In this document: positions 50,580-63,630 of the stretch, piece after piece | Position numbering within the stretch: the first letter of the stretch is position 1 | Layout: each line of letters starts with the position of its first letter | NCBI RefSeq assembly: GCF_039533965.1 | Contig: NZ_BAAAUN010000001.1 | Location: 3,786,448-3,850,447 of the forward strand | Length of the DNA stretch: 64,000 nt | Direction: 5' to 3' | From: Microbacterium luteolum | GTDB taxonomy: Bacteria; Actinomycetota; Actinomycetes; Actinomycetales; Microbacteriaceae | Notes under the pieces: generated by a model | Told to the model about the DNA's origin: nothing | Databases searched by the model: none | The model's input: only the letters and a program-made list of their open reading frames with translations | Position numbers and translations under genes: made by a program

Positions 50580-52421
50580 TCACCGCTTGAGCGGTCCCCG
50601 CAACGCGCGGAGGGCGTAGAGGATCGTGGCCAGGTCGACGAATTCCTGAGTGACAGCACCGACGACGGCCGGGATGATCCCGGTCATGGCGACGATCATG
50701 AGGACGAGACTCAGCGCGATGCCGATCCAGATCGCTGTCAGTGCGACTCGCAGCGTGTGGCGGCTGATCGCTACCGCGTCGACGACGCTTGCCAGTGAAT
50801 CCACGAGGATCACGACATCGGCGGCGTCGCCGGCGGCGGTCGCCCCCTTGGCTCCCATGGCGACACCGATGTCGGACGCGGCCAGGACGGGTGCGTCATT
50901 GACACCGTCGCCGACCATCATCATCGGTCGAGGTTCGAGTTCCCTGGCGAGGCGCACCTTCTCCGGAGGCAGCAGCTCAGCGCGAACCTGGGTGATCCCG
51001 ACGCGCTGCCCGACGGCTTCGGCGGTCGATCGCACGTCGCCGGTGAGCATGATGATCCGATCGATATCGTGGGTGCGCAGCCACGAGACGACGTCCGCTG
51101 CTTCCGGACGTACGTCGTCGGCGAGTACGAGCACGCCGGCGAACCGTCCGTCCACTGCCATGTAGGCCGCGGCCTCGCCGACATGAAGCAGGGCCCGAGT
51201 GGTACCGGGGGCGAGGTCGGCGACGAATGCGGGCTTGCCGACGACCACGGTACGCCCATCGATCGTTGCCACGACGCCGTTGGTGGCTTCCTCGCGAGCA
51301 TCGGTGACAGCCCGCAGGAGGAGGCCCCTGCTCTCTGCAGCACGCCGGATCCCGTCGGCGAGAACGTGCGAGGAGTATTGCTCCGCGGAGGCGGCAAGCT
51401 GCAGGATCTCGTCGGCCCCGAACCCTTCGGACGGGCGGATGTCGATAACCTCGGGGCGGCCCTGAGTGAGTGTCCCTGTTTTGTCGAAGGCAGCAGAGCG
51501 CACCCGGGCGATCTGCTCGATCACGGCGCCGCCTTTCATGATCACTCCGGCCTTCGCTGCCCGGGAGAGACCGCCGAGGAACGCGACCGGTGCCGCGATC
51601 AGGAGTGGGCATGGCGTGGCCAGCACGAGGACCTCAGCGAACCGTGTGGAGTCCCCGGAGATCGCCCATGCGGTTCCGGCCAGGATCAGCGCGACGGCGG
51701 TGAACGGTATGGCGAAGCGGTCAGCCAATCGGACGACGGGAGAACGGGAGTCTTCCGCGGCCCGCACGAGTGCGACGATCTGTTGGTACTGGCTGTCGGC
51801 GCTGGAGCGCTCCGCACGGATTCTTGCCGCCCGGTTCCCGTTGATCGATCCCGACAGCACTTCCTGGCCGGCTTCGCGAGCGACAGGCATGCTCTCGCCC
51901 GTCAGCGAGGACTGGTCGAAGGAGCCGGTGTCGGTGAGGAGGGAGCCGTCGACGGGGACGATCTCGGATGGGCGGACGAGAAGCACGTCTCCGACGACGA
52001 CGTCATCCACGGGGACGTCCTCGACCTCAGCGCCATTCGGGTCCTCAGCGTGCAAGAGCACGTGCGCGACACGGGGCGACCTGTCGAGCAGGGCGGACAG
52101 GTCGCGCTTGGCACGTCTGCCGGCGAAGTCCTCCAGCGCCTCGCCGCCGGCGAGCATCAGCACGATGATGAGCGAGGCGATGTACTCGCCGACCGCGAGC
52201 GTGGCGATCATGGCCACAAGGGCCAGGATGTCGAGTCCGACGTGTCCGCGAATCACGTCGCGGATCATGACGTTCATCGTCCAGGCGATGAACCCTCCGA
52301 CGTAGATCGTCGCCACCCACCGCCCTGCGTTCTGCGTGCCGACGGCATGCAGCGCCAAGACCCCGATGAAGACGATGATCGTGATCGCGATGACGGGGTA
52401 CCTCCGGAGCAGAGAGATCAA
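50580..52421 (-). CDS. Heavy-metal-type P1B ATPase
   Basis: 613 residues. Membrane helices at about 8-100, the TGES actuator loop (SSLTGESMPVAR), the metal site TPCP in LATPCPLLIAAPVAF, the phosphorylation motif DKTGTLTQG and GDGVNDAPVLAASDIG are all present. There is no N-terminal HMA or Cys-rich metal domain, and the intramembrane motif is TPC rather than CPC, so it belongs to the zinc/cobalt/manganese-like or unassigned branch. It is the second gene of an operon with a universal stress protein and falls in the DosR-like gene block, where mycobacterial counterparts (CtpF-like) also appear. Confidence 0.92.
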   Translation of the reverse strand: MISLLRRYPVIAITIIVFIGVLALHAVGTQNAGRWVATIYVGGFIAWTMNVMIRDVIRGHVGLDILALVAMIATLAVGEYIASLIIVLMLAGGEALEDFAGRRAKRDLSALLDRSPRVAHVLLHAEDPNGAEVEDVPVDDVVVGDVLLVRPSEIVPVDGSLLTDTGSFDQSSLTGESMPVAREAGQEVLSGSINGNRAARIRAERSSADSQYQQIVALVRAAEDSRSPVVRLADRFAIPFTAVALILAGTAWAISGDSTRFAEVLVLATPCPLLIAAPVAFLGGLSRAAKAGVIMKGGAVIEQIARVRSAAFDKTGTLTQGRPEVIDIRPSEGFGADEILQLAASAEQYSSHVLADGIRRAAESRGLLLRAVTDAREEATNGVVATIDGRTVVVGKPAFVADLAPGTTRALLHVGEAAAYMAVDGRFAGVLVLADDVRPEAADVVSWLRTHDIDRIIMLTGDVRSTAEAVGQRVGITQVRAELLPPEKVRLARELEPRPMMMVGDGVNDAPVLAASDIGVAMGAKGATAAGDAADVVILVDSLASVVDAVAISRHTLRVALTAIWIGIALSLVLMIVAMTGIIPAVVGAVTQEFVDLATILYALRALRGPLKR

Positions 52422-52879
52422 GAAGTCGCTTCCTGGTCCGCGTCCTCATTGGTCTTCCGTGTGTGCACGATCAGCACCGGGCAATGCGCGTGCTCGGCGC
52501 AAGCCGCACTGACGGAGCCCAACAGGAGTCCCACGAATCCACCGTGGCCTCGACTGCCGAGCACGAGCATCGCGCACGTATCGCTCAGTCCGATGAGCGT
52601 GCGCGCTGCTGCTCCAGGGAGGACAGCACGGGTGAGTCCGTCAGGTGGCGTCTTGCCGAAAGCCTCCTCGATCGCGGCGTCGAGGGTCTCTCCGGCGTAC
52701 TTCTCCGGCGTCCAGTCGATGGCCAGATAGGGATCGATCGGTGGTGCTGTCCATGTCGTGACGACGTGCAGCGGAGCATCGAGTGCGTTGGCCATCCGCG
52801 CGGCGTAGCGAAGAGCCGAGATGGAGGTTTCAGATCCGTCCACGCCGACGACGATACGATCTGTGACTGCTTTTTCCAT
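52418..52879 (-). CDS. Universal stress protein
   Basis: 153 residues from ATG 52879. Single USP domain with ATP-binding motif G-2x-G-9x-G-S in GSRGHGGFVGLLLGSVS (about 122-138). An upstream in-frame ATG (52927) would place the coding region over the DosR-like site at 52914-52927, so the downstream start is preferred. It overlaps the P-type ATPase gene by 4 bp. In mycobacteria several USPs belong to the DosR regulon. Confidence 0.9.
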   Translation of the reverse strand: MEKAVTDRIVVGVDGSETSISALRYAARMANALDAPLHVVTTWTAPPIDPYLAIDWTPEKYAGETLDAAIEEAFGKTPPDGLTRAVLPGAAARTLIGLSDTCAMLVLGSRGHGGFVGLLLGSVSAACAEHAHCPVLIVHTRKTNEDADQEATS

Positions 52880-52913
52880 AGGTCCACGGTGTCCTGCTGA
52901 GGCCGCAGCGACC

Positions 52914-52927
52914 GGGACGAAGGTCAT
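52914..52927 (-). promoter_or_regulatory. DosR-like box ahead of USP/P-type ATPase operon (degenerate)
   Basis: Minus-strand reading ATGACCTTCGTCCC matches the local consensus GGGACCTTCGACCC at 11 of 14 positions, 34 bp before the USP start. Confidence 0.5.
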
Positions 52928-52944
52928 ACGAGCATCGGTACAGC

Positions 52945-53020
52945 ATGATCACGCTGAAGGCGCGTCCCTCCGCCGCCGATACGGAGGAGCGCATCCGCAA
53001 GGCGCTTGTCCGCAATGCCC
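52945..53020 (+). pseudogene. Possible remnant of a BON-domain gene
   Basis: An open stretch encodes MITLKARPSAADTEERIRKA followed by LVRNAQ, which resembles the join between two BON domains (typically ITLKPxxSAxDVxxxIxxALxRNAx). The similarity stops at about 53020 and the frame continues antisense to the PNPOx gene. No start context or rest of the domain is present. BON proteins occur in other DosR-type clusters, so a truncated relic is plausible, but the match is short. Confidence 0.3.
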
Positions 53021-53043
53021 AGTACGTGCGAACCTCGACGTTC

Positions 53044-53466
53044 TCAGGACGATGGTCCAGTCACGAGATCGAACACTCGGCCCTGGACGCTGGTGGGAGT
53101 GATCCGCACCCAACGGTCCTTCTCTTCCGGGGCCCAGGGATGCACCCCCAGGCGTTCCGCGTCTCGCACCTCAGCATCCCGGTCGAACTCCTCCGCGATG
53201 CCCTTGACGACCACGCTGAAGGCCTCACGATCATCGTGCCCGTCGATCTCGAACGCGACCGAGTTGCGGATCGTCAACTCCACGAGCTTCCTGCCCGCCG
53301 ACGTGCGGAAGACGATGGAGTGCCCGTCCGTCCGGTGATTGACCGGGAAGATGTCGATCTCACCGGCTGCGCTGGATGCGATCCGTCCATAGGGCGCCCG
53401 CGACAGAAGGCCCCAGCACTCATCCTCGGTCAGCTGTCGAGAAGGCTGGCGTTCCGTCTCGGTCAT
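53044..53466 (-). CDS. Pyridoxamine 5'-phosphate oxidase-fold protein
   Basis: 140 residues, split-barrel flavin-binding fold: SRAPYGRIASSAAGEIDIFPVNHRTDGHSIVFRTSAGRKL, then NSVAFEIDGHDDREAFSVVVKGIAEEF. It is related to Rv2004c/Rv3131-neighbour type DosR proteins and F420 or FMN reductase-like enzymes; the cofactor is not defined. It is divergent from phosphoketolase across 123 bp containing a DosR-like box. Confidence 0.85.
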   Translation of the reverse strand: MTETERQPSRQLTEDECWGLLSRAPYGRIASSAAGEIDIFPVNHRTDGHSIVFRTSAGRKLVELTIRNSVAFEIDGHDDREAFSVVVKGIAEEFDRDAEVRDAERLGVHPWAPEEKDRWVRITPTSVQGRVFDLVTGPSS

Positions 53467-53533
53467 GATGGCTCCCGTTCTCGAGACTTCGGTGTCGTGC
53501 AGACATCGTGGGCCCGCTTCGTTGGTGCAGCCA

Positions 53534-53547
53534 GGGTCGAAGGTCCC
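53534..53547 (-). promoter_or_regulatory. DosR-like box between PNPOx-fold gene and phosphoketolase
   Basis: GGGACCTTCGACCC on the minus strand, 67 bp from the PNPOx start and 42 bp from the phosphoketolase start, so it could serve both. Confidence 0.75.
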
Positions 53548-53589
53548 GCCATCGCGATCCCGACCGGCGGGACCTAGGGCACTGGCAGG

Positions 53590-56100
53590 GTGTCGACTCA
53601 GAGCAAGACTGCAGCAATGGACGAACTATCCGCTGGGATCGCCGATGACCGCTCCGTCGACTTCCTGGCTACACATCCGTGGCCGCTACGTGGTGCGAGG
53701 CCCGTCACCGAGACGGCGCTTCATGCCGTGAACGCGTGGTGGCGCGCAGCGAACTATCTCTCAGTCGGGCAGATCTACTTGCTCGACAATCCGCTCCTCC
53801 GAGAACCCCTCACTCCGGACCACATCAAACCGCGACTGCTCGGACACTGGGGAACCACCCCTGGCCTCAACTTCGTCTACGCGCACCTCAATCGCGTCAT
53901 CCGAGAGCGATCTCTCCATGCGATCTACATCGCGGGCCCCGGGCACGGCGGTCCCGGCATGGTCGCGAACGCCTACCTGGATGGGACGTACAGCGAGATC
54001 TACGACTCCATCGATCGCTCGGAGGACGGCGTGCGGCGACTGTTCCGCCAGTTCTCCTTCCCTGGGGGCATACCGAGCCACGTCGCACCGGAGACCCCCG
54101 GGTCGATCCACGAAGGCGGTGAGCTCGGCTATTCCCTCTCTCATGCCTACGGCGCCGCGTTCGACAATCCCGACCTCCTCGTCGCCACGGTCGTCGGTGA
54201 CGGAGAAGCCGAGACCGGCCCGCTGGCGACCGGGTGGCACGGGAACAAGTTCGTCAATCCGCGGCAGGACGGGGTGGTTCTGCCGATCCTGCATCTCAAC
54301 GGGTACAAGATCGCCAACCCCACGCTTCTCGCTCGGATACCCGAGACGGAACTGCTCGAGCTCATGCGCGGGTACGGCCACACCCCGTACCTCGTCTCCG
54401 GTGGGTTCGACGGAGAGGATCCGATGGACGTGCATCGACGCTTCGCCGTGGTCATCGACGAAGTCCTGGATCACATCGCGCGAATCAAGGCGGATGCAGA
54501 CTCCGGCGCTCTGCGCGGGCGACCGGCGTGGCCGATGATCATCCTGCGCACGCCGAAAGGGTGGACGTGTCCGAGAGAGATCGACGGCCACCCGGCGGAG
54601 GACAACTGGCGATCGCATCAGGTGCCGCTGCGCGATGCGCGCGACACCGAGGCGCACACAAGGCTGCTCGAATCGTGGATGCGGTCCTACGGTCCGGATG
54701 AGCTCTTCGATGAGAACGGCGCCGTCGCCGAATCGGTCTCAGCACTGGCCCCCGACGGGGACCTCAGGATGAGCGCCAATCCGGTAGCGAACGGCGGCCT
54801 GCTGAGGAAGGATCTGCGACTCCCGGACTTCCGCGACTACGCGGTCGACGTCCCAGAGCCGGGCGCGACTGTGAGCGAGGCGACCCGTGTGCTCGGAGGC
54901 TGGCTTCGCGATGTGATCGAGGCCAACCCGCACGACTTCCGCATCTTCGGCCCCGACGAGACAGCATCCAACCGCCTCGATGCCGTCTTCGAAGTGACGG
55001 ACAAGCAATGGAACGCCGAGTCGCTGCCGATGGACGACGACAACCATCTGGCGCGCACCGGCAGGGTCGTCGAGATGCTCAGCGAACATCAGTGCCAGGG
55101 CTGGCTGGAGGGATACCTGTTGACCGGCCGCCACGGCCTCCTCAACTCGTACGAGGCGTTCATCCACATCGTGGACTCGATGTTCAATCAGCATGCGAAG
55201 TGGCTGAAGACGAGCCGGGGTATACCGTGGCGGCGGCCGATCTCCTCGCTGAACTACCTGCTCAGCTCTCACGTCTGGCGGCAGGATCACAACGGGCTGT
55301 CCCACCAGGACCCCGGGTTCATCGACCACGTCGTGAACAAGAAAGCCGATGTGGTCCGGGTGTATCTGCCCTTCGATGCGAACACCCTGCTGTCGACGTA
55401 CGACCATTGTCTGCGTTCTCGCGACTATGTGAACGTCGTCGTCGCGGGGAAGCAGCCGGCGCCGAACTGGCTCGATATGGATGCCGCGATCGAGCACTGC
55501 ACCCGCGGTTTGGGCCTCCTGGACTGGGCAGGGACCGAACGGCCAGGGGAGGAACCTGATGTCGTCCTCGCGGCGGCGGGCGACGTCCCGACGTTGGAGG
55601 TGCTCGCCGCAGCATCCATCCTGCGGAGCCGGATATCGGAATTGAAGGTGCGCGTTGTCAACGTCGTCGACCTCATGCGGCTGCAGACGCAGGACAAGCA
55701 CCCGCACGGCCTGGACGATCAGGAATATGACGCGATCTTCACCGCCGACAAGCCTGTCGTCTTCGCCTACCACGGCTACCCGTGGCTCATTCATCGTCTG
55801 ACCTATCGCCGCCACGGCCACGCCCATCTCCACGTGCGCGGATACATCGAGGAAGGCACCACGACCACACCGTTCGACATGGTGATGATGAACGACATCG
55901 ACCGGTTCCACCTGGTGATGGACGTGATCGACCGAGTTCCTGGTCTCGGAGCCCGGGAGGCGGGCTTGCGACAGGAAATGCAGGATTCACGGGTACGCGC
56001 ACGGGCGTATACGCGGCTCCATGGCGAGGACGCGCCCGAGATCAGGAACTGGGCCTGGACGGGGCCCGCTGATGGGGTCGATCACCGACCGAACGAGTGA
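53590..56100 (+). CDS. Phosphoketolase (Xfp family)
   Basis: 836 residues from GTG 53590. Cleaves xylulose-5-phosphate and/or fructose-6-phosphate with phosphate to acetyl phosphate. The TPP-binding motif GDGEAETGP lies at about 198-206, with [17 protein letters not shown] near 116 and [27 protein letters not shown] typical of the family. Acetyl phosphate yields ATP and acetate without respiration, which fits control by a hypoxia/redox regulator. The DevR-like gene converges on it with a 19-bp overlap. An ATG at 53617 is a less likely alternative start. Confidence 0.94.
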
Positions 56101-56738
56101 TCGGCCGGGCGATTCGCCCGCTCGGTCTGGAGGACTGCCGCCTGCGTGCGTCGTTCGAGTCCCAGCTTGCTCAGGAGGGAGGACACGTAGTTCTTCACCG
56201 TCTTCTCCGCCAGGCCGAGTCGCTCGCCGATCTGCCGATTCGACAGCCCCTCGGCGATGAGGGTGAGTATCTGCTTCTCGCGCAGACTCAACGCGCCGAA
56301 ACGCGGGTCGTCTTCCTCAGCTCGACTGACACTGCGCGTGACATGTCGCACCATCGATGGTTTCAGCAATCTCTGGCCTTCCGCGACGGCGCGGACCGCT
56401 GCCACGAGTTCACCGGTGCGCAGCGTCTTCACCAGGTAGCCTGCCGCGTCCCCCATCACGGCCGCGAAAACCGCATCGTCATCGTCGAAGGCGCTGAGTA
56501 TCAGACATTGCACTTTCGGATGCGCCTGCCGGATCTGACGGCACAGATCGATGCCGCTGCCGTCGGGGAGATGCACGTCGAGCACGACGACGTCCGGCAG
56601 GGTCGCAGCGACACGCGCGGCCGCTTCGCGCACAGTCGCCGCCTCGCCGATCACGGTGAGATCCGGTTGTGCATCCAAGAGGTCGGCGACACCGCGCCGA
56701 ACCACTTCGTGGTCGTCGACGAGGAAGATCCGGAACAC
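56082..56738 (-). CDS. DevR/DosR-like response regulator
   Basis: 218 residues, closely resembling mycobacterial DevR in length and sequence: [17 protein letters not shown] at the start, phosphoacceptor Asp54 in [13 protein letters not shown], and a C-terminal HTH with the DNA-contact helix [25 protein letters not shown] (Lys and Asn positions as in DosR). It should bind the GGGACCTTCGACCC-type sites found ahead of its own gene and of five other units. It is the probable partner of the GAF kinase at 58984, encoded 2.2 kb away rather than next to it. Confidence 0.93.
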
Positions 56739-56805
56739 TCCACCACCGTCTCTCTCGCTGCTCGTGCGTGGGCCTCAGCGTACCCCTCGAATCGCACGAA
56801 GCCTC

Positions 56806-56819
56806 GGGACCTTCGACCC
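56806..56819 (+). promoter_or_regulatory. DosR-like box between devR-like gene and PNPOx gene
   Basis: GGGACCTTCGACCC, 67 bp ahead of the regulator start and 70 bp ahead of the PNPOx-fold start, implying autoregulation. Confidence 0.75.
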
Positions 56820-56889
56820 TGTCCACACCGGTGCCCGGCTGTTGACTGGGGTCGTTCTTGAAAGGCCCGCCCCGAGACTCAGGAGACGG

Positions 56890-57501
56890 ATGATGGTGAA
56901 CGACGACCCCGCCCCTTCCTACCGTGACACGTCGGCCGCTGCGCCGGCGGCGGCAGCAGTCGGTGTTGAGGAGATCGGCACGGCAGCGTGCTGGCGGCTG
57001 ATCGAGGCGAGTTCATTGGGTCGTCTTGCTGTCCAGAACGTCGACGGCCACCCCGACGTGTTTCCGCTCAACTATCTCGTTCACGAGGGAAGCCTGTACG
57101 TGAGGTCAGCGCCGGGCGCCAAGCTGCGAAGCCTCGTCGCTCACCCCGAAGTGGCCTTCGAGGTTGACGGGATCACCGATGCATTCCATTGGAGCGTCGT
57201 GATCAGGGGGAGGGCGACAAGGATGAACACGGACGCTGCCATCGCAGCATCCGGGGTTCTCCAGCTCATCTCGAGCAGCCCCACCGCGAAGCACAACTAT
57301 CTGCGGCTCGTCCCCGACACGGTCACCGGCCGCCGATTCGCTGTCGGCAGTTCCGCTCCGGCGAGAGCGGACGATGCTCGTGCGACACCGGAGCGGGAGA
57401 TCGTGACGGAGGAACACGTCACGCCGCGGGGCCGTACGCCGCATCGGACGGCGGACAAGCCGCAGCCGATTCCACACCTCCGGCCGTGGACAGGCGGCTG
57501 A
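56890..57501 (+). CDS. Pyridoxamine 5'-phosphate oxidase-fold protein with C-terminal extension
   Basis: 203 residues from ATG 56890 (AGGAGA site). Flavin split-barrel region at about 25-150 (IGTAACWRLIEASSLGRLAVQNVDGHPDVFPLNYLVHEGSLYVRSAPGAKL). The last 50 residues are Arg/Pro-rich and disordered (PQPIPHLRPWTGG end). A second copy beside the gene at 53044. Likely a flavin or F420-dependent reductase, or a flavin sink in dormancy. Confidence 0.83.
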   Translation: MMVNDDPAPSYRDTSAAAPAAAAVGVEEIGTAACWRLIEASSLGRLAVQNVDGHPDVFPLNYLVHEGSLYVRSAPGAKLRSLVAHPEVAFEVDGITDAFHWSVVIRGRATRMNTDAAIAASGVLQLISSSPTAKHNYLRLVPDTVTGRRFAVGSSAPARADDARATPEREIVTEEHVTPRGRTPHRTADKPQPIPHLRPWTGG

Positions 57502-57621
57502 ACCGTCGCCGCATGATCACCCGGAGGGCTTAGAGGTCAGCCGCCTGTAGCGGGGCTCGGTCGGATGCCAGGTGTGGGGCCAGGCAGGAGGCGGAGGGCG
57601 GCGCCGAAGGGGGAGGTGGAA

Positions 57622-57648
57622 GGGGCGACGCGTCGGGGGCGTCGCTCC
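57622..57648. terminator. Stem-loop between PNPOx gene and USP operon
   Basis: A ten-pair stem around GCGACGC/GCGTCGC with a 7-nt loop lies 3 bp beyond the USP stop at 57651 and 121 bp after the PNPOx stop. Confidence 0.6.
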
Positions 57649-57650
57649 TT

Positions 57651-58112
57651 TCACGAGGTTCGCAGGCGCTCGTCGAGAACAGGCGCATGCACGACGAGGA
57701 CGGGGCAGTGCGCATGGGCGGCACAGGCGGCGCTCACCGAACCGAGCAGTAGTCTCCGGAACCCGCCGCAACCACGGCTGCCGACGACCAGCATGGTCGC
57801 GCGATCGCTCTGTTCGAGTAGCACCCGAGCGGCTGGACCGGGGAGGGTGGACGCGCGGAAACCATCGGGAGGATGCCCTTGAAAGGCTTCGCGAACGGCG
57901 TCGTCGAGAAGGCGCTGCGCCTCCTCTTCGGATGACCAGTCGGAACCGGGGTCCAGCGGATCGAGCATCACCGGGTACGTCCAGGTGGTGATCGCCTGGA
58001 GTGGCGCGCCGACGGCGCGGGCGATCGTCGCGGCCAGCGCGAGTGCCTCCACGGACGCTGCGGAGCCGTCGACGCCCACAATGACGGGCTGGGGTCGGGC
58101 GATCTCGATCAT
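57651..58112 (-). CDS. Universal stress protein, single domain
   Basis: 153 residues from ATG 58112. ATP-binding motif GSRGCGGFRRLLLGSVS (about 124-140), the same arrangement as the USP at 52418, with which it shares much of the C-terminal half (SVSAACAxHAHCPVLxVH), so the two are paralogues. It overlaps the tandem USP gene by 4 bp. Confidence 0.9.
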   Translation of the reverse strand: MIEIARPQPVIVGVDGSAASVEALALAATIARAVGAPLQAITTWTYPVMLDPLDPGSDWSSEEEAQRLLDDAVREAFQGHPPDGFRASTLPGPAARVLLEQSDRATMLVVGSRGCGGFRRLLLGSVSAACAAHAHCPVLVVHAPVLDERLRTS

Positions 58113-58849
58113 GCTGTTGGACGGACGACGAGGACCGGGGCATTGATGTTCACGAGCACGTCGTGGGTCACCGCTCCGAGAGCGTGACCGGCTCCTCGCG
58201 GATGCCCCGCTCCGATCACGAGGAGCGATGCATTCCGGGAGGCGTCGAGCAGAGCCTCTGCGGGAGGGCGCTCGCTGGCTCGGATTCGGAGCCTCGCGTT
58301 CGGTGCTCTCTCGACGGCCATGGCGGCGGCGCGATCGAGAACGGGTCCTCCGATCTCGATGGGCGCCGGGACGAGGCCCTCGCCGGATGAATGTATCAAC
58401 TGGAGGGTTTCCTCTCGGGCATTCGCCTCGTCGGCGGCGGCGTGAACAATCGCCGGCAAGACCTCGTCGTCTTTCACTCCGGCGACGATTCCCCTTCGGA
58501 AACGCAGATCGACCCGCGGGATCACGGCAACGCCGCACCTGGCCTCCGCAGCGATCTGAAGGCTCAATGTGCCGAAGACCCGGCTGCGGATGAACCCGGT
58601 CTTGCCCGTGCCGATGACGAGAATGTCCTCGTCGCGCACGAAATCCGCGAGAGCTTCGGGGACGGCGCCGCTCAGGAACACGACGTCGCTCGGCGTGTCC
58701 GCGCTCGAGCGGGCAGTACCCGGCTCCGGTGCTCCGACGTGCACCCGGACGACACGTGAGCCAGAGAGGGAAGCATGGGCAGCCGCCCACGCCTCGGCAG
58801 CGTCAACCGGATCGGTGCCCCCGACACCGACGACGAATCGTCCACTCAT
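58109..58849 (-). CDS. Universal stress protein, tandem-domain
   Basis: 246 residues from ATG 58849. Two USP-like repeats: the first (1-125) has a degenerate nucleotide loop (IGTGKTGFIRSRVFGTLS), the second ends GAGHPRGAGHALGAVTHDVL and NAPVLVVRP. Reminiscent of two-domain USPs of the DosR regulon such as Rv2623, though with weaker ATP-site glycines. Divergent from the sensor kinase with a DosR-like box between. Confidence 0.87.
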   Translation of the reverse strand: MSGRFVVGVGGTDPVDAAEAWAAAHASLSGSRVVRVHVGAPEPGTARSSADTPSDVVFLSGAVPEALADFVRDEDILVIGTGKTGFIRSRVFGTLSLQIAAEARCGVAVIPRVDLRFRRGIVAGVKDDEVLPAIVHAAADEANAREETLQLIHSSGEGLVPAPIEIGGPVLDRAAAMAVERAPNARLRIRASERPPAEALLDASRNASLLVIGAGHPRGAGHALGAVTHDVLVNINAPVLVVRPTA

Positions 58850-58914
58850 GCTGAGCCGCCCCTCCTCGTCGGTAACCGGAGTCAATGGTCGAACGGGGGG
58901 AGCGACCCGCGACA

Positions 58915-58928
58915 GAGTCGAAGGTCCC
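58915..58928 (-). promoter_or_regulatory. DosR-like box between USP operon and sensor-kinase gene
   Basis: Minus-strand reading GGGACCTTCGACTC, one base from the consensus, 65 bp before the USP start and 55 bp before the kinase start. Confidence 0.7.
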
Positions 58929-58983
58929 CTCACCCACGAACACGAGTAGTGTCGTCCTCATCGGCAGCCGGGAAGGCGGTTCG

Positions 58984-60678
58984 ATGAACAAGAAGGATCT
59001 CGAGTTCCCCGACCGGCGGCGCTCGGAGCTGGAGAACACGATCGGGGAGCTACTCGATCGCGCCCATCTCGTCCTCGCCTCGCAAGAGCGGTTGAGGAGC
59101 CTGCTCCGTGCCAACCAGGCCGTGGTCGAGGATCTGGAACTCGAGCAGGTGCTTCGTCACATCGCGGAAGCGGCTGTCACCCTGGTCGATGCCCAATACG
59201 GTGCGCTCGGCGTCATCGATCGGGAGGGACGCCTCGAACAGTTCATCCACGTCGGGATGCCGGCGGCTCTGGCCGAGGAGATCGGACACCTTCCCGAAGG
59301 GCATGGCATCCTCGGGGCCGTCATCGAGAGCGCGCACCCGATCCGCCTCGACGATCTCGGTGGTGATCCGCGTTCGGTCGGTTTCCCAGCCCACCACCCG
59401 CCTATGGGCACCTTCCTCGGGGTGCCGATTCGTGTGCACGGCGAGATCTACGGCAACCTGTACCTCACCAACCGCGCAGGGGGGAGCTTCACCGACGAGG
59501 ACGAGGAGCTGGTCCTCGCCCTCGCATCGACCGCGGCGATCGCGATCGACAATGCGCGCCGCTTCGAGGAGTCCCTTCGGCTGCAACGGCTGAGCAGCGC
59601 ACTGGCCGAGATCACCGCAGCCCTCCTGTCCCCGGATGCCGGAGAGGTATTCGGCGTTCTCGCCGAGCGCGTCGCATCGCTCGTGGAGGCGGACCTGGTC
59701 TGCATCGTCGTCCCCGATCCTCTTACGGGGAGATACCTTGTCGACACGGCGCGGGGGATGGGCGCTGGATCCCTGGAAGGCTCCGAAGTGTCCGGTGACA
59801 ATGCGGTGATCTCCCAAGCGATGGAAAGTGGGGGTGCAGTAGCCTCCGACGGGCCGACGGGTGCGCTTTCCACCGACCCTCAGTTCGCCGTCGGTTCGAC
59901 GGTCGCTGTTCCTCTGGTCGTAGCGGGCACTCCCGCCGGAGCTCTCTATGTGACGCGTGATGCGAACGGCAGTCGGTTCTCACCCGAGGATCTTTCGACG
60001 CTGGCAGAGTTCGCCGCCCAGGCAGGGCTCGCGCTCGCTCTCGCGCAAGCACGCACCGATCGTCAACGGCTGGATCTGATCGAGGAGCGGGCCCGGATCG
60101 CCCGAGACCTTCACGACAACGTCATCCAGCGGCTCTTCGGCACCGGTCTCGGTCTGCAGGCGCTCGCCGCGAAGATCCCCGCTCACGCTGCGACGATCGC
60201 CGCACAGGTCGGTGAGATAGATGCCGCGATCGCGGACTTCCGCACAGCGATCTTCACTCTTCAGACATCCGACCCGGGGTCGGTCCGCCACCGCGTGCTC
60301 GATGTGGCGAACGAGATCACGCCGCGCCTCGCCAGCTCACCCCGGATCACCTTCGCGGGTCCCGTCGACCTTCTCGTGACGGGCGAACTCGCCGACGACG
60401 TCGTCGCCGTGGTGCGGGAATCGCTCAGCAACGTCGCGCGTCATGCGAGAGCGACGGCCACGGAGGTCAGCCTCTCCGTGTCTTCCTCGCACATCACGAT
60501 CGTCGTGGACGATGACGGGATCGGGATGCCCGCGCGTCCCTCACGCACGAGCGGCACGGCGAACCTCGCCACTCGCGCGCGCACGCATGGCGGCGCCTGC
60601 AACATCGAGCCGCGAAGCACGGGCGGGACACGGGTGCGATGGCACGTCCCCCTCGAATCGGCTCAGGCCGCGGAGTAG
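58984..60678 (+). CDS. DevS/DosS-like GAF sensor histidine kinase
   Basis: 564 residues from ATG 58984. Two GAF domains (about 48-192 and 218-355), a HisKA_3 dimerisation segment with His377 in ARIARDLHDNVIQRLFGTGL and an HATPase domain (about 455-555: SLSNVARHARAT, DDDGIGMP). There are no membrane helices. In GAF-A the segment VGFPAHHPPMGTFLGVPIRV (His137/His138) corresponds to the heme-ligand region of mycobacterial DosS, so O2, NO, CO or redox sensing through heme is likely. The earlier in-frame start (58885) would run through the DosR-like box and is rejected. Confidence 0.92.
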   Translation: MNKKDLEFPDRRRSELENTIGELLDRAHLVLASQERLRSLLRANQAVVEDLELEQVLRHIAEAAVTLVDAQYGALGVIDREGRLEQFIHVGMPAALAEEIGHLPEGHGILGAVIESAHPIRLDDLGGDPRSVGFPAHHPPMGTFLGVPIRVHGEIYGNLYLTNRAGGSFTDEDEELVLALASTAAIAIDNARRFEESLRLQRLSSALAEITAALLSPDAGEVFGVLAERVASLVEADLVCIVVPDPLTGRYLVDTARGMGAGSLEGSEVSGDNAVISQAMESGGAVASDGPTGALSTDPQFAVGSTVAVPLVVAGTPAGALYVTRDANGSRFSPEDLSTLAEFAAQAGLALALAQARTDRQRLDLIEERARIARDLHDNVIQRLFGTGLGLQALAAKIPAHAATIAAQVGEIDAAIADFRTAIFTLQTSDPGSVRHRVLDVANEITPRLASSPRITFAGPVDLLVTGELADDVVAVVRESLSNVARHARATATEVSLSVSSSHITIVVDDDGIGMPARPSRTSGTANLATRARTHGGACNIEPRSTGGTRVRWHVPLESAQAAE

Positions 60679-60695
60679 ATCCAGCCGAACGCGAT

Positions 60696-60709
60696 GGGAC
60701 GTTCGACCC
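60696..60709 (+). promoter_or_regulatory. DosR-like box ahead of small protein/flavodoxin operon
   Basis: GGGACGTTCGACCC, one base from the consensus, 17 bp after the kinase stop and 69 bp before the ATG at 60779. Confidence 0.7.
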
Positions 60710-60778
60710 TGCGTCCGAAACGGTGACGGGAAACGATGTGTGACATCGCGGGAACCACATCGCCGCACAAGGAGCATC

Positions 60779-60898
60779 ATGAACGACACCAGTTTCGTCA
60801 TCCGCCCACCGCTTTCCGTCGGTCCGGCCGACCTGCAGCTTCCGCCCACGCAGCCGATCGACCTCACCGATCTGATCCCGGCGGAGGCGGGGCGGTGA
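60779..60898 (+). CDS. 39-residue small protein of the DosR-like block
   Basis: Begins after a strong AAGGAG site; encodes MNDTSFVIRPPLSVGPADLQ and ends in PIDLTDLIPAEAGR. Pro/Leu/Asp-rich, no Cys, no membrane segment. Its stop overlaps the flavodoxin start (GTGA), and a DosR-like box lies upstream. These signals make it a real gene. Perhaps a partner or regulator of the flavodoxin-domain protein. Confidence 0.65.
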   Translation: MNDTSFVIRPPLSVGPADLQLPPTQPIDLTDLIPAEAGR

Positions 60899-61473
60899 CC
60901 ACCGACCATCCGCAAGAACCGGGTCCGACGGTGACCATCGTGTTCGAATCGCTGTTCGGCAGCACGCGGCAGGTGGCAGAGGCCATCGCGGACGGAATCC
61001 GGGAGACCACCCCCGTGTCGGTGATGTCCGTTGTCGATGCACCCGCCCTCACTGACTGCGACGTCCTGGTCGTCGGCGCGCCGACGCACGCGCATTCGCT
61101 GAGTCGGCCTGCATCCCGGACGGAAGCCGAAAGCTGGGCACGCGACCCGGCGAAACATCTGCGGTTCGAAGGGGACAGCCGCGCCACCGGAGTGAGGGAG
61201 TGGATCGACCGCTGCCCGTCCCCGCGGATCGGCTACGTCGCGTTCGACACCCGCGTCGACATGCCGCGGATCTTCACCGGCTCGGCAGCTTCCGCGATCG
61301 CGAAGCGGCTGAGAAAGCACGACCTACGCGAGGTCGTCCCCTCGGAGAGCTTTCTCGTCGACAAGGACAGTCATCTGCTGCCGGCGGAGATCGACCGTGC
61401 ACGTCGCTGGGGGCGCGCGATCGCAAGCGCCGTAGCGGCGTCGGCGCGTCCGGAGACTTCGATGAAGCGATGA
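60895..61473 (+). CDS. Flavodoxin-domain protein
   Basis: 192 residues from GTG 60895. Flavodoxin-like fold: TIVFESLFGSTRQVAEAIADGI (about 13-34) is the FMN-phosphate loop (S-x-F/Y-G-S/T-T), and VLVVGAPTHAHSLSRP the second FMN loop. There is no iron or thiol motif, so it is probably an electron carrier or NAD(P)H-linked FMN protein. Coupled to the 39-residue gene. Confidence 0.85.
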   Translation: MTTDHPQEPGPTVTIVFESLFGSTRQVAEAIADGIRETTPVSVMSVVDAPALTDCDVLVVGAPTHAHSLSRPASRTEAESWARDPAKHLRFEGDSRATGVREWIDRCPSPRIGYVAFDTRVDMPRIFTGSAASAIAKRLRKHDLREVVPSESFLVDKDSHLLPAEIDRARRWGRAIASAVAASARPETSMKR

Positions 61474-61539
61474 CCGCGAGCGGGAGGCGGCAGTCGCACG
61501 TTGTCTCGCCGGCGTTCTGACCCATGGAGTCGTCGCGGA

Positions 61540-61553
61540 AGGACCTTCGACCC
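61540..61553 (+). promoter_or_regulatory. DosR-like box ahead of alcohol dehydrogenase gene
   Basis: AGGACCTTCGACCC, one base from the consensus, 59 bp before the ATG at 61613. Confidence 0.65.
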
Positions 61554-61612
61554 GTTGGCTGGTGCCCACCCGCGAAAGACTTCCGTCGTACGAATCCCGT
61601 CAAGGAGGAATG

Positions 61613-62671
61613 ATGCGAGCAGCAGTTGTCACAGAATTCGGTTCGCCGGCGCACGTCGAGGAGCGCCCGATCCCGCAGCCCGGTCCCGGACAAGTTCTGG
61701 TCCGCCTCGAGACGTGCGGGCTGTGCCACACCGATATCCATGCCATGCACGGAGACTGGCCGGTGAAGCCGAGTCTTCCTCTGGTTCCCGGGCACGAAGG
61801 CGTGGGGATCATCGAGCAGCTCGGAGACGGGGTGACGAACCGCACGATCGGGCAGCGGGTCGCGATGCCGTGGCTCGGACACGCGTGCGGCGAGTGTCGG
61901 TTCTGCATCGACGGCCGCGAGAACCTCTGCGAGCAGCAGTACAACAACGGCTACGCCGTGGACGGCGGATTCGGCGAGTACATGCTGGCCGACTCGCGTT
62001 TCGCCACCCCGGTTCCCGACGGCGTCACCGCACTCGACGCCGCACCCCTCACCTGCGCGGGAGTCACGACGTACGCAGCGATCAAGAACGCGCGCGTCAC
62101 CCCAGGAGAAACCGTCGTGATCTTCGGTGTCGGGGGACTCGGACACCTCGCCGTGCAGTACGCCCGCCTCGTGGGGGCGAAAGTCATCGCGGTGGATGTC
62201 ACGGACGAGAAGCTGGAGCTGGCATCCGAGCTCGGCGCGGATCACGTCGTCAACGCGCGCAACGTGGATCCGATCGAGCAGATCCGGAGTCTCGGAGGAG
62301 CGGACGTGGCCGTGGTTCTCGCCGTCGCACCCACCGTCTTCGATCAGGCATTCACTTCACTGAATCGGGGAGGTCGACTGGTTCTCGTCTCCCTGCCCGC
62401 CGGCGGCGAGCTGACCGTGCCGATCTTCGACACCGTGCTCAAGGGCATCAGCATCATCGGCTCCATCGTCGGTACCCGGCAGGACCTCGCCGAAGTCTTC
62501 GCCCTGCATGCCGCCGGACGCACCAGGGTCGTCACGGAGACGCGCGAACTGCAGCAGGTGAACTCGTCCGTCGACGAGGTGCTCGCCGGTACGGTGCCCG
62601 CTCGACTCGTGTTCCAGTACCACACGGCGGACGTCGTGCCGTTCTCAGCGTCAGCACTCGCCGCCCGGTGA
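61613..62671 (+). CDS. Zinc-dependent alcohol dehydrogenase (AdhP type)
   Basis: 352 residues. Medium-chain dehydrogenase: catalytic zinc ligands Cys in TCGLCHTDIHAMHGDW and His in PGHEGVG, structural zinc Cys cluster in HACGECRFCIDGRENLC, and NAD-binding GVGGLGHLAVQYARLVG (about 165-181). Oxidises alcohols or reduces aldehydes, regenerating NAD+ under oxygen limitation. Two tandem ATGs follow AAGGAGG (61602-61608); the second (61613) has the better spacing. Confidence 0.92.
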   Translation: MRAAVVTEFGSPAHVEERPIPQPGPGQVLVRLETCGLCHTDIHAMHGDWPVKPSLPLVPGHEGVGIIEQLGDGVTNRTIGQRVAMPWLGHACGECRFCIDGRENLCEQQYNNGYAVDGGFGEYMLADSRFATPVPDGVTALDAAPLTCAGVTTYAAIKNARVTPGETVVIFGVGGLGHLAVQYARLVGAKVIAVDVTDEKLELASELGADHVVNARNVDPIEQIRSLGGADVAVVLAVAPTVFDQAFTSLNRGGRLVLVSLPAGGELTVPIFDTVLKGISIIGSIVGTRQDLAEVFALHAAGRTRVVTETRELQQVNSSVDEVLAGTVPARLVFQYHTADVVPFSASALAAR

Positions 62672-62777: not shown

Positions 62778-63164
62778 TCAGCCCCAGAAGAGGTCCTCTG
62801 CATCCTGGTCCTCGCTGATCAGCCAGATCTCCGCGATCCGATCGCCCTCGACGCGGAACACGTCGACGCCGTGCTGGTCGAGATCTGCAGCACCTTCGCG
62901 CCGGGCCGTGAACCGCACGGTCGTGGCGACGAGCTGACCGCTCTCCGTCGCGGACTCGGTCTCGAGCGCGAAGGTTCCGCCGCTCAGCTCCATGAATGCA
63001 CCCAGATGCGCAAGGACCGCGTCCGGCCCCACGTGATCGCCCGAGCGCTGGTTGGCGCCCGGCTGATGCCACACCACGTCATCCGCGAGTGTCGCGACCA
63101 GCGCATCCATGTCTCCCGCCGCGATTGCGGCTCCGTACTGTCCCACCACGTCGATCGCCGACAT
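62778..63164 (-). CDS. NTF2-like/SnoaL-fold protein
   Basis: 128 residues from ATG 63164 (GGAGG site). NTF2-like cone fold (DVVGQYGAAIAAGDMDALVATLADDVVWHQPGAN). Members include polyketide cyclases, epoxide hydrolases and ketosteroid isomerases, but the catalytic residues are not conserved enough to name a substrate. Divergent from the HxlR regulator, its probable controller. Confidence 0.82.
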   Translation of the reverse strand: MSAIDVVGQYGAAIAAGDMDALVATLADDVVWHQPGANQRSGDHVGPDAVLAHLGAFMELSGGTFALETESATESGQLVATTVRFTARREGAADLDQHGVDVFRVEGDRIAEIWLISEDQDAEDLFWG

Positions 63165-63252
63165 GTTCGTCCTCCGCTTCTGCTCGGTACCCTGAGATTC
63201 CACCGTGTCGAGGCGGGCATGGTTACTTCAACGTCACCAGGAGGAGCGCCGG

Positions 63253-63630
63253 ATGACAACCGAGTGGACGGTGTTCTCCGCCCAGTGCCCATCGCGTCGT
63301 TCGCTGGCTCGCATTGCGAACAAGTGGACGGCGATGATCGTCGTTCTGCTCCATGAGCGCCCCCGACGCTTCGGGGAGCTTCACCGGGACGTGGACGGGA
63401 TCACCAAGAAGGTCCTGGCCGACACCCTCCGCGCACTGGAGCGCGACGGGATGGTCGAGCGCGTCGCTCATGCCGACGGTTATGCCCGCTATCGGCTCAC
63501 GGCGCTCGGCCACACTCTGCATGAGCCGCTCAGAGCCCTTCAGGTCTGGGCGGAGTCTCACGTCGAGGACGTGATCGACGCACAGGATCGCTACGACGCC
63601 GCTGTCGACGACCAGACCCTGGCGCCCTGA
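63253..63630 (+). CDS. HxlR-family transcriptional regulator
   Basis: 125 residues. Winged-helix HxlR fold with the conserved N-terminal Cys in FSAQCPSRRSLARIANKWTAMIVVLL (about Cys12), often a thiol/aldehyde or quinone sensor, and the HTH LHRDVDGITKKVLADTLRALERDGMV. Probably represses the divergent NTF2-like gene until a reactive compound modifies the Cys. Confidence 0.88.
   Translation: MTTEWTVFSAQCPSRRSLARIANKWTAMIVVLLHERPRRFGELHRDVDGITKKVLADTLRALERDGMVERVAHADGYARYRLTALGHTLHEPLRALQVWAESHVEDVIDAQDRYDAAVDDQTLAP

Follow-up and report, generated by a model that had tools for sequence, protein, structure and literature searches.

The closest described relatives of the system considered in this article are the DosRST system of Mycobacterium tuberculosis (PMC4082495, PMC3029386, PMC12919924), the OsdKR system of Streptomyces coelicolor (PMC5069765), and the DosR boxes predicted in Rhodococcus equi (PMC2947987). 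In M. tuberculosis, DosR contacts the bases of its DNA through Lys179, Lys182, and Asn183, and the sensor DosS uses His149 as the heme ligand and Tyr171 as the distal residue, while the occurrence of Glu87 in DosS versus Gly85 in DosT is a proposed but disputed cause of the autooxidation of DosS versus the retention of O2 by DosT (PMC4082495). The system examined here is a 12-kb island of Microbacterium luteolum that seems to encode an oxygen-sensing switch of the DevR/DevS type, as known from M. tuberculosis, together with its apparent target genes. It is located in a stretch of 64,000 nucleotides (nt) of contig NZ_BAAAUN010000001.1 (positions 3,786,448 to 3,850,447 of the forward strand), which is referred to as the window and from whose first letter all coordinates are counted.

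The island resembles DosRST in the key residues of DevR, the heme-GAF design of DevS, and a palindromic box of the GGGAC type, as well as in the overlap of the start-proximal DevR site with the -35 region (PMC3029386). It differs in having a single kinase seen near devR, a P1B-type metal ATPase, a phosphoketolase, and a micropeptide, and its box is asymmetric (GGGACC/TTCGACCC). OsdKR, likewise built on a DosR orthologue outside the mycobacteria, shares the local cluster around the regulator, the divergent promoters, and targets encoding a universal stress protein (USP), an alcohol dehydrogenase (ADH), and a PNPOx-fold protein (OsdR Table 1), whereas its predicted reach is wider, covering 43 sites in 27 transcription units and including nitrate reductase and pyruvate phosphate dikinase (PPDK); the word phosphoketolase is absent and no micropeptide is noted in the available text (PMC5069765). 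The OsdR sites are near-identical to those of the island (GGGACCTTCGGCCC), with the sites AGGGACCTTCGGCCCC at narG2 and SCO0167 one base off its 14-mer core (PMC5069765). In R. equi, the same degenerate box, GGGHCNWWNGNCCC, was used for prediction, and Xfp is also present in the genome (PMC2947987). A DosR-type regulon outside the mycobacteria, as proposed in the first-pass annotation of this DNA, is a supported interpretation but not a new one, since OsdR provides the precedent for its USP, ADH, and PNPOx part (PMC5069765). What seems to go beyond the literature searched is the Microbacterium island itself, the geometry between its boxes and -10 elements, the recurrent boxes before phosphoketolase genes, and the micropeptide family.

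The island is very probably a self-contained DosR/DevR-type regulon, a reading of the sequence that is supported by the intergenic position of the boxes, by their recurrence before homologous genes, and by their association with devS in genomes of the genus. Characteristic targets of DosR regulons, namely USPs, flavin/PNPOx proteins, and the regulator itself, are encoded in it. The six 14-mer sites claimed in the first-pass annotation are found at the claimed places, exact at 53534 and 56806, with one mismatch at 58915, 60696, and 61540, and with three mismatches at 52914. All of them lie outside likely genes, at distances ranging from 34 nt (USP gene starting at 52879) to 70 nt (PNPOx gene starting at 56890) before starts judged likely from the sequence, and the boxes at 53534, 56806, and 58915 stand between divergent genes, which gives the three divergent pairs described. 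The proposed likeness to the DosR box is borne out by the sites at 53534, 56806, and 60696, which fit the published degenerate box exactly and are its only matches in the window. At up to three mismatches, 24 matches were counted in the window against a shuffle mean of 15.1, with 2 of 100 shuffles reaching 24; because such counts only modestly exceed those of shuffles, site 52914 is unsupported by its sequence match alone, and because looser matches are common by chance, the case rests on the five good sites.

The two components of the switch were correctly recognized as well. The best solved relative of the regulator is M. tuberculosis DevR/DosR (3c3w, residues 1-211, E 6e-62), and Asp54, Lys179, Lys182, and Asn183 occur at the same numbers as in DosR; the base-contact residues are kept in nearly all homologues (Lys179 in 95/97, Lys182 in 95/96, Asn183 in 96/96). 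The predicted sensor kinase consists of GAF-A, GAF-B, HisKA_3, and HATPase_c domains, with the heme His and the distal Tyr kept. The best structure matches of GAF-A are 2vzw ("probable histidine kinase response regulator"), which we take to be DosT GAF-A, and the DevS GAF-A entries 2y8h, 2y79, and 2w3d. Among DevS homologues, the equivalents of His149 and of Tyr171 are each found in 78 of 79, and Gly occupies the Glu87 (gating) position in 76 of 79, as it does in the island; this branch of DevS is thus DosT-like by the gating criterion.

Recurrence of the box was assessed in 97 related loci, comprising 80 devR loci and 17 devS loci of the genus, with 300 homologous genes that had a usable start. 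The five closest named DevR loci belong to Microbacterium, and two of the named Microbacterium loci (L005 and L009) share their flanks with L090 and L091, which come from genomes classed in the genus of the island. The exact box occurs in 71 of the 300 upstream regions and in 0 of 300 gene bodies, and at up to one mismatch in 119 and 4, respectively, the gene bodies being a control but not a matched intergenic one. Some loci represent the same genome twice (the duplicate or near-duplicate pairs L005/L090, L009/L091, and L027/L099, with L063-L065 also close), so these counts and those of the -10 element and of box direction contain some duplication. Column-permuted control patterns were at least as frequent as the box in 5/300 cases over all 80 loci and in 3/300 over the first 31; because this control is only partly clean, the comparison of upstream regions with gene bodies is relied on.

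The DevR/DevS system is patchy in the genus, as devS was matched at E <= 1e-120 in 17 of 59 genomes. The exact sequence GGGACYTTCGRCCC was found in 27 of 58 genomes searched, and its association with devS was analyzed in 35 genus genomes, excluding 23 genomes from other families to which the devS search did not extend and taking as negative those without a match at E <= 1e-120. A site was present in 10/12 devS-positive genomes versus 6/23 devS-negative ones (Fisher p 0.003), with 30 sites in the former and 8 in the latter; 25 of the 30 lie within 12.5 kb of devS, and the reversed control gave 3 hits across the 35 genomes.

The geometry of the promoters was analyzed with 89 distinct boxes, read from GGGAC to CCC. 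A -10-like element (T/A-A/T-N-N-C-T-like) appears at +23 to +28, that is, 22 nt past the box; 46 of 89 boxes show two or more of T1, A2, and T6 at that offset and 26 do so at the next, the median across offsets being 3, whereas the opposite reading direction gives a best offset of 16/89 and a median of 5. When each record contributes a single box, T28 is found in 23/55 and A24 in 22/55. This spacing places the box center about 42 nt before the transcription start. In the island, two of the three -10 positions are matched behind the boxes at 56806 (TTGACT), 60696 (AACGAT), 61540 (AAGACT), and 52914 (CACCGT), and the match behind 53534 lies one base further on. The box is also directional: among 101 exact sites, the center is TT in 40 of the 56 before USP, PNPOx, ADH, flavodoxin, phosphoketolase, or micropeptide genes and AA in 33 of the 45 before devR or devS, a contrast that is partly built in because boxes of divergent pairs count for both genes.

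Several results weigh against the DosR-type reading of the island. Two devS-positive genomes (G021 and G022) carry no exact GGGACYTTCGRCCC site, and six devS-negative genomes carry one or two each; the box at 58915 has no good -10-like element, and the site at 52914 is weak. The genome encodes 16 further DevR-like regulators at E <= 1e-20, any of which might bind the boxes, and the published box is not enriched genome-wide, with 20 strand hits versus 24 for the reversed control. Of the 7 sites with 0-1 mismatch in the 4.14-Mb genome, however, 5 cluster within the 10 kb of the island, as do 3 of the 12 distinct genomic places of the published box. Additionally, 18 of 21 near-sites examined outside the island fall within coding sequence according to our own codon-score gene caller; the 21 comprise all nine consensus places, both one-mismatch places, and 10 chosen from 84 two-mismatch places, one of the nine consensus places also counting as a two-mismatch place. 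A genome-wide regulon was therefore rejected. Because the box is not over-represented across the genome, the visible reach of the regulon beyond the island is small, and these intragenic sites together with the lack of overall enrichment make it look local. The same intragenic near-sites, the modest excess over shuffles at three mismatches, and the five permuted patterns that equaled or exceeded the box in frequency in the 80 loci could also suggest that the repeated 14-mer is a motif of chance or coding bias; this is extremely unlikely, given that five of the seven best sites in the genome stand ahead of genes within 10 kb and that upstream regions and gene bodies differ so sharply. That another NarL-family regulator binds the boxes, with DevR a mere neighbor, would be compatible with the abundance of such regulators and is judged highly unlikely, as none of them exceeds 44% identity to DevR (the best-scoring one has 38%), DevR retains the base-contact residues of DosR, and the box tracks devS across genomes.

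For the self-contained regulon, we infer from the proteins, their key residues, the recurring boxes, and the -10 spacing a course of events in which DevS, acting as a soluble kinase whose heme-GAF domain has an open, DosT-like distal site, would sense the loss of O2 or the binding of NO/CO and phosphorylate DevR at Asp54. Phosphorylated DevR would then bind the six GGGACCTTCGACCC-type boxes, whose center precedes the start site by about 42 nt, and recruit RNA polymerase to promoters with a -10 element but without a clear -35 element. The predicted outcome is the induction of the USPs, the metal ATPase, the flavin proteins, the phosphoketolase, the ADH, the pair of micropeptide and flavodoxin, and devR and devS themselves. 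It is also conceivable that DevR binds the boxes while its input comes from metabolic phosphodonors, such as acetyl phosphate made by the phosphoketolase, or from redox state, and not mainly from gas via heme, DevS acting as a phosphatase or redox sensor. Such an input would suit the xylulose/fructose-6-phosphate phosphoketolase (XFP), the genome's sole XFP_N/phosphoketolase match, whose gene is preceded by an exact box, and the acetate kinase, which is encoded elsewhere with no box nearby at the thresholds searched (scans at 0-1 and 2 mismatches and with the published box). Acetyl phosphate phosphorylates DosR at Asp54 in vitro (PMC12919924) and has been used to phosphorylate OsdR (PMC5069765). 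The retention of the checked heme-pocket residues in DevS would be odd if heme sensing had been lost, and the feedback loop is itself conjectural, for which reasons we regard the metabolic input as unlikely.

As XFP produces acetyl phosphate (PMC6456759) and acetyl phosphate can phosphorylate DosR in vitro, a feedback loop from XFP through acetyl phosphate to DevR is possible. An XFP match occurs within the fetched DNA of 15 of the 80 devR loci, some of these matches being partial or distant; of the 10 that reach at least 60% identity and include the N-terminus, six are accompanied by a box with no more than one mismatch and no farther than 150 nt from where the match begins, and three of these boxes are exact. 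No link between DosR and phosphoketolase was found in the available parts of the literature searched, and the phosphoketolase appears to be an addition relative to published DosR-type gene sets. The fermentative arm of phosphoketolase and ADH that had been proposed is conjectural: both genes are present, the acetate kinase is located elsewhere without a nearby site, and no search was made for an enzyme joining the XFP product to ADH.

The list of nine genes besides devR and devS (a P-type ATPase, three USPs, two PNPOx-fold proteins, the phosphoketolase, a flavodoxin, and the ADH) agrees with Pfam, with NCBIfam refining the identity of the ATPase and the phosphoketolase, but it overlooks the first gene behind the box at 60696. 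This is an open reading frame (ORF) of 39 residues that is preceded by AAGGAG and whose TGA overlaps the GTG start of the flavodoxin gene at 60895. The predicted micropeptide has the core LPPT[QE]PIDIT and belongs to an apparently undescribed family seen mainly in Microbacterium; of 295 genus genomes, its own among them, 42 contain a match at E <= 0.01. The family profile retrieved 366 database proteins at E <= 0.01, and all those with a name among 120 listed are called hypothetical or uncharacterized. No convincing match came from Pfam or NCBIfam (only E 0.075 or worse, each to one of 26 members), and the string LPPTQPID had no match in the literature searched. Its reach beyond the genus is uncertain, because an order-level profile search, in which no more than 24 candidates were scored for any genome, found it in only 10 of 297 genomes.

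Scanning the fetched loci with a regular expression yielded 45 distinct members. When the 220 nt upstream of each were inspected with up to one mismatch allowed, a DosR-like box was found for 16 of them, 35-99 nt away. Gene bodies, which do not serve as a matched intergenic control, contained one in 4 of 300 cases (Fisher p 1.6e-12). In a set of 30 micropeptide loci, 16 had a box. The stop codon lies within ATGA or GTGA in 12/16 box-linked members versus 5/29 without a box, and in 8 of the 16 a called gene starts at this stop, encoding a flavodoxin, USP, ADH, or metallo-beta-lactamase-fold protein. As the stop so often overlaps the next start in this class, the micropeptide would be made in step with the next protein. 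Other neighbors of the family include flavodoxin, USP, ADH, Hsp20, PPDK, and metallo-beta-lactamase-fold genes. Hsp20 is adjacent to 5 of the 45 members (two of the five Pfam-checked), and binding of the micropeptide to Hsp20 in the manner of an I-x-I motif is speculation. A box is lacking in all 14 members that neighbor a DEAD-box helicase, whose family was checked on one representative. In other genus genomes (L134, L135, L149, L150, L154, L168, L171, and L172), a box-less subclass with the pattern DPAA[IL]xLPPT[QE]PID lies between a permease-like gene, named from its translation, and a DEAD-box RNA helicase gene.

Substitution ratios are mixed, with 3 of the 15 closest pairs shown at or above 1 and means over all pairs of pN 0.28 versus pS 0.53, and the coding status is therefore argued from the invariant P, T, and P residues. 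The AlphaFold model of the peptide is mostly coil, with no helix of at least four residues and no strand (mean pLDDT 77, pTM 0.23), which would fit a linear motif without proving one. Taken jointly, our judgment is evenly divided on whether, in Microbacterium, a family of micropeptides of about 29-58 residues (core P[AS]DLxLPPT[QE]PIDIT) is under the direct control of the DevR regulon and supplies extended linear-motif ligands to a shared partner in stress physiology, with acetyl phosphate from the box-controlled XFP adding a metabolic positive feedback on the switch.

Three intergenic sites outside the island were left out of the regulon, located at fdxA-like (L108), sugar-enzyme-like (L110), and peptidase-like (L120) genes that were named from their translations without a database. 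The exact box 36 nt before the fdxA-like ferredoxin gene (L108:1450-1560; G000:C1:2142400) lacks the -10 spacing and lies within a short repeat next to a MerR/SoxR-type palindrome; a box at up to one mismatch precedes such genes in 5 of 30 fetched genus loci, its own included, and the genome has three matches to this ferredoxin. As a distant DevR target, fdxA was judged probably incidental. Ferredoxin promoters in L223-L247 often show, by eye, a clear TAGACT like the -10-like element after DosR boxes.

The features of the island are collected in the table below. Its end is that of the first-pass annotation, and its start is moved from 52418 to 50580, since the P1B-type ATPase gene directly follows USP1 in an apparent leftward operon. 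The stretch 62778-63630, past the island, encodes a SnoaL-like protein and, divergently, a regulator of the HxlR family, and the 14-mer scan of the window gave no site there. In the relatives L002, L089, L126, and L128, devS is separated from the micropeptide-flavodoxin unit by a DevR-like gene, which in L002 is a second copy in addition to the usual devR, whereas in the window the micropeptide directly follows devS.

Table. Features of the Microbacterium luteolum island, in window coordinates
Feature	Coordinates	Strand	Evidence and remarks
P1B-type (heavy metal, Cd family) ATPase	50580..52421	-	Pfam; NCBIfam TIGR01525/TIGR01512 above cut-off; apparent USP1 operon, downstream of USP1, ORF overlaps USP1 stop
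Universal stress protein 1 (USP1)	52418..52879	-	PF00582; ATG at 52879
Weak DosR-like box, 3 mismatches	52914..52927	-	34 nt before USP1; A24/T28 spacing of -10-like element fits
PNPOx-fold flavin protein 1 (PNPOx1)	53044..53466	-	PF12900
DosR-type box, exact GGGACCTTCGACCC	53534..53547	-	Between PNPOx1 and phosphoketolase
Xylulose/fructose-6-P phosphoketolase (XFP)	53590..56100	+	Pfam, NCBIfam, PF09364; start 53590 or 53617
DevR/DosR-type NarL-family response regulator	56082..56738	-	3c3w E 6e-62; Asp54, Lys179, Lys182, Asn183
DosR-type box, exact	56806..56819	+	Between devR and PNPOx2; TTGACT 22 nt downstream, PNPOx2 side
PNPOx-fold flavin protein 2 (PNPOx2)	56890..57501	+	PF12900; start placed from sequence
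Universal stress protein 3 (USP3)	57651..58112	-	PF00582; behind USP2, apparent operon
Universal stress protein 2 (USP2)	58109..58849	-	PF00582; start placed from sequence
DosR-type box, 1 mismatch	58915..58928	-	Between USP2 and devS
DevS/DosT-type sensor kinase	58984..60678	+	GAF-A (heme type), GAF-B, HisKA_3, HATPase_c
DosR-type box, 1 mismatch to first-pass consensus, exact to published box	60696..60709	+	69 nt before micropeptide
39-residue ORF MNDTSFVIRPPLSVGPADLQLPPTQPIDLTDLIPAEAGR	60779..60898	+	Stop overlaps flavodoxin GTG
Flavodoxin-domain protein	60895..61473	+	PF12724; GTG start at 60895
DosR-type box, 1 mismatch	61540..61553	+	56 nt before ADH; AAGACT 22 nt downstream
Zinc alcohol dehydrogenase (ADH)	61610..62671	+	Pfam; closest NCBIfam model AdhP, 336.4 bits, just below cut-off 344

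A small and nearly closed DosR-type regulon outside the mycobacteria would allow the box, the promoter geometry, and the target set to be studied without a pathogen, and the recurrent 22-nt spacing from box to -10 element, together with the polarity of the box, provides direct predictions of the mode of activation by DevR. Feedback is suggested by a phosphoketolase that would be controlled by a regulator able to accept phosphate from acetyl phosphate, and the micropeptide family would add a further regulated element to those so far described for the dormancy response.

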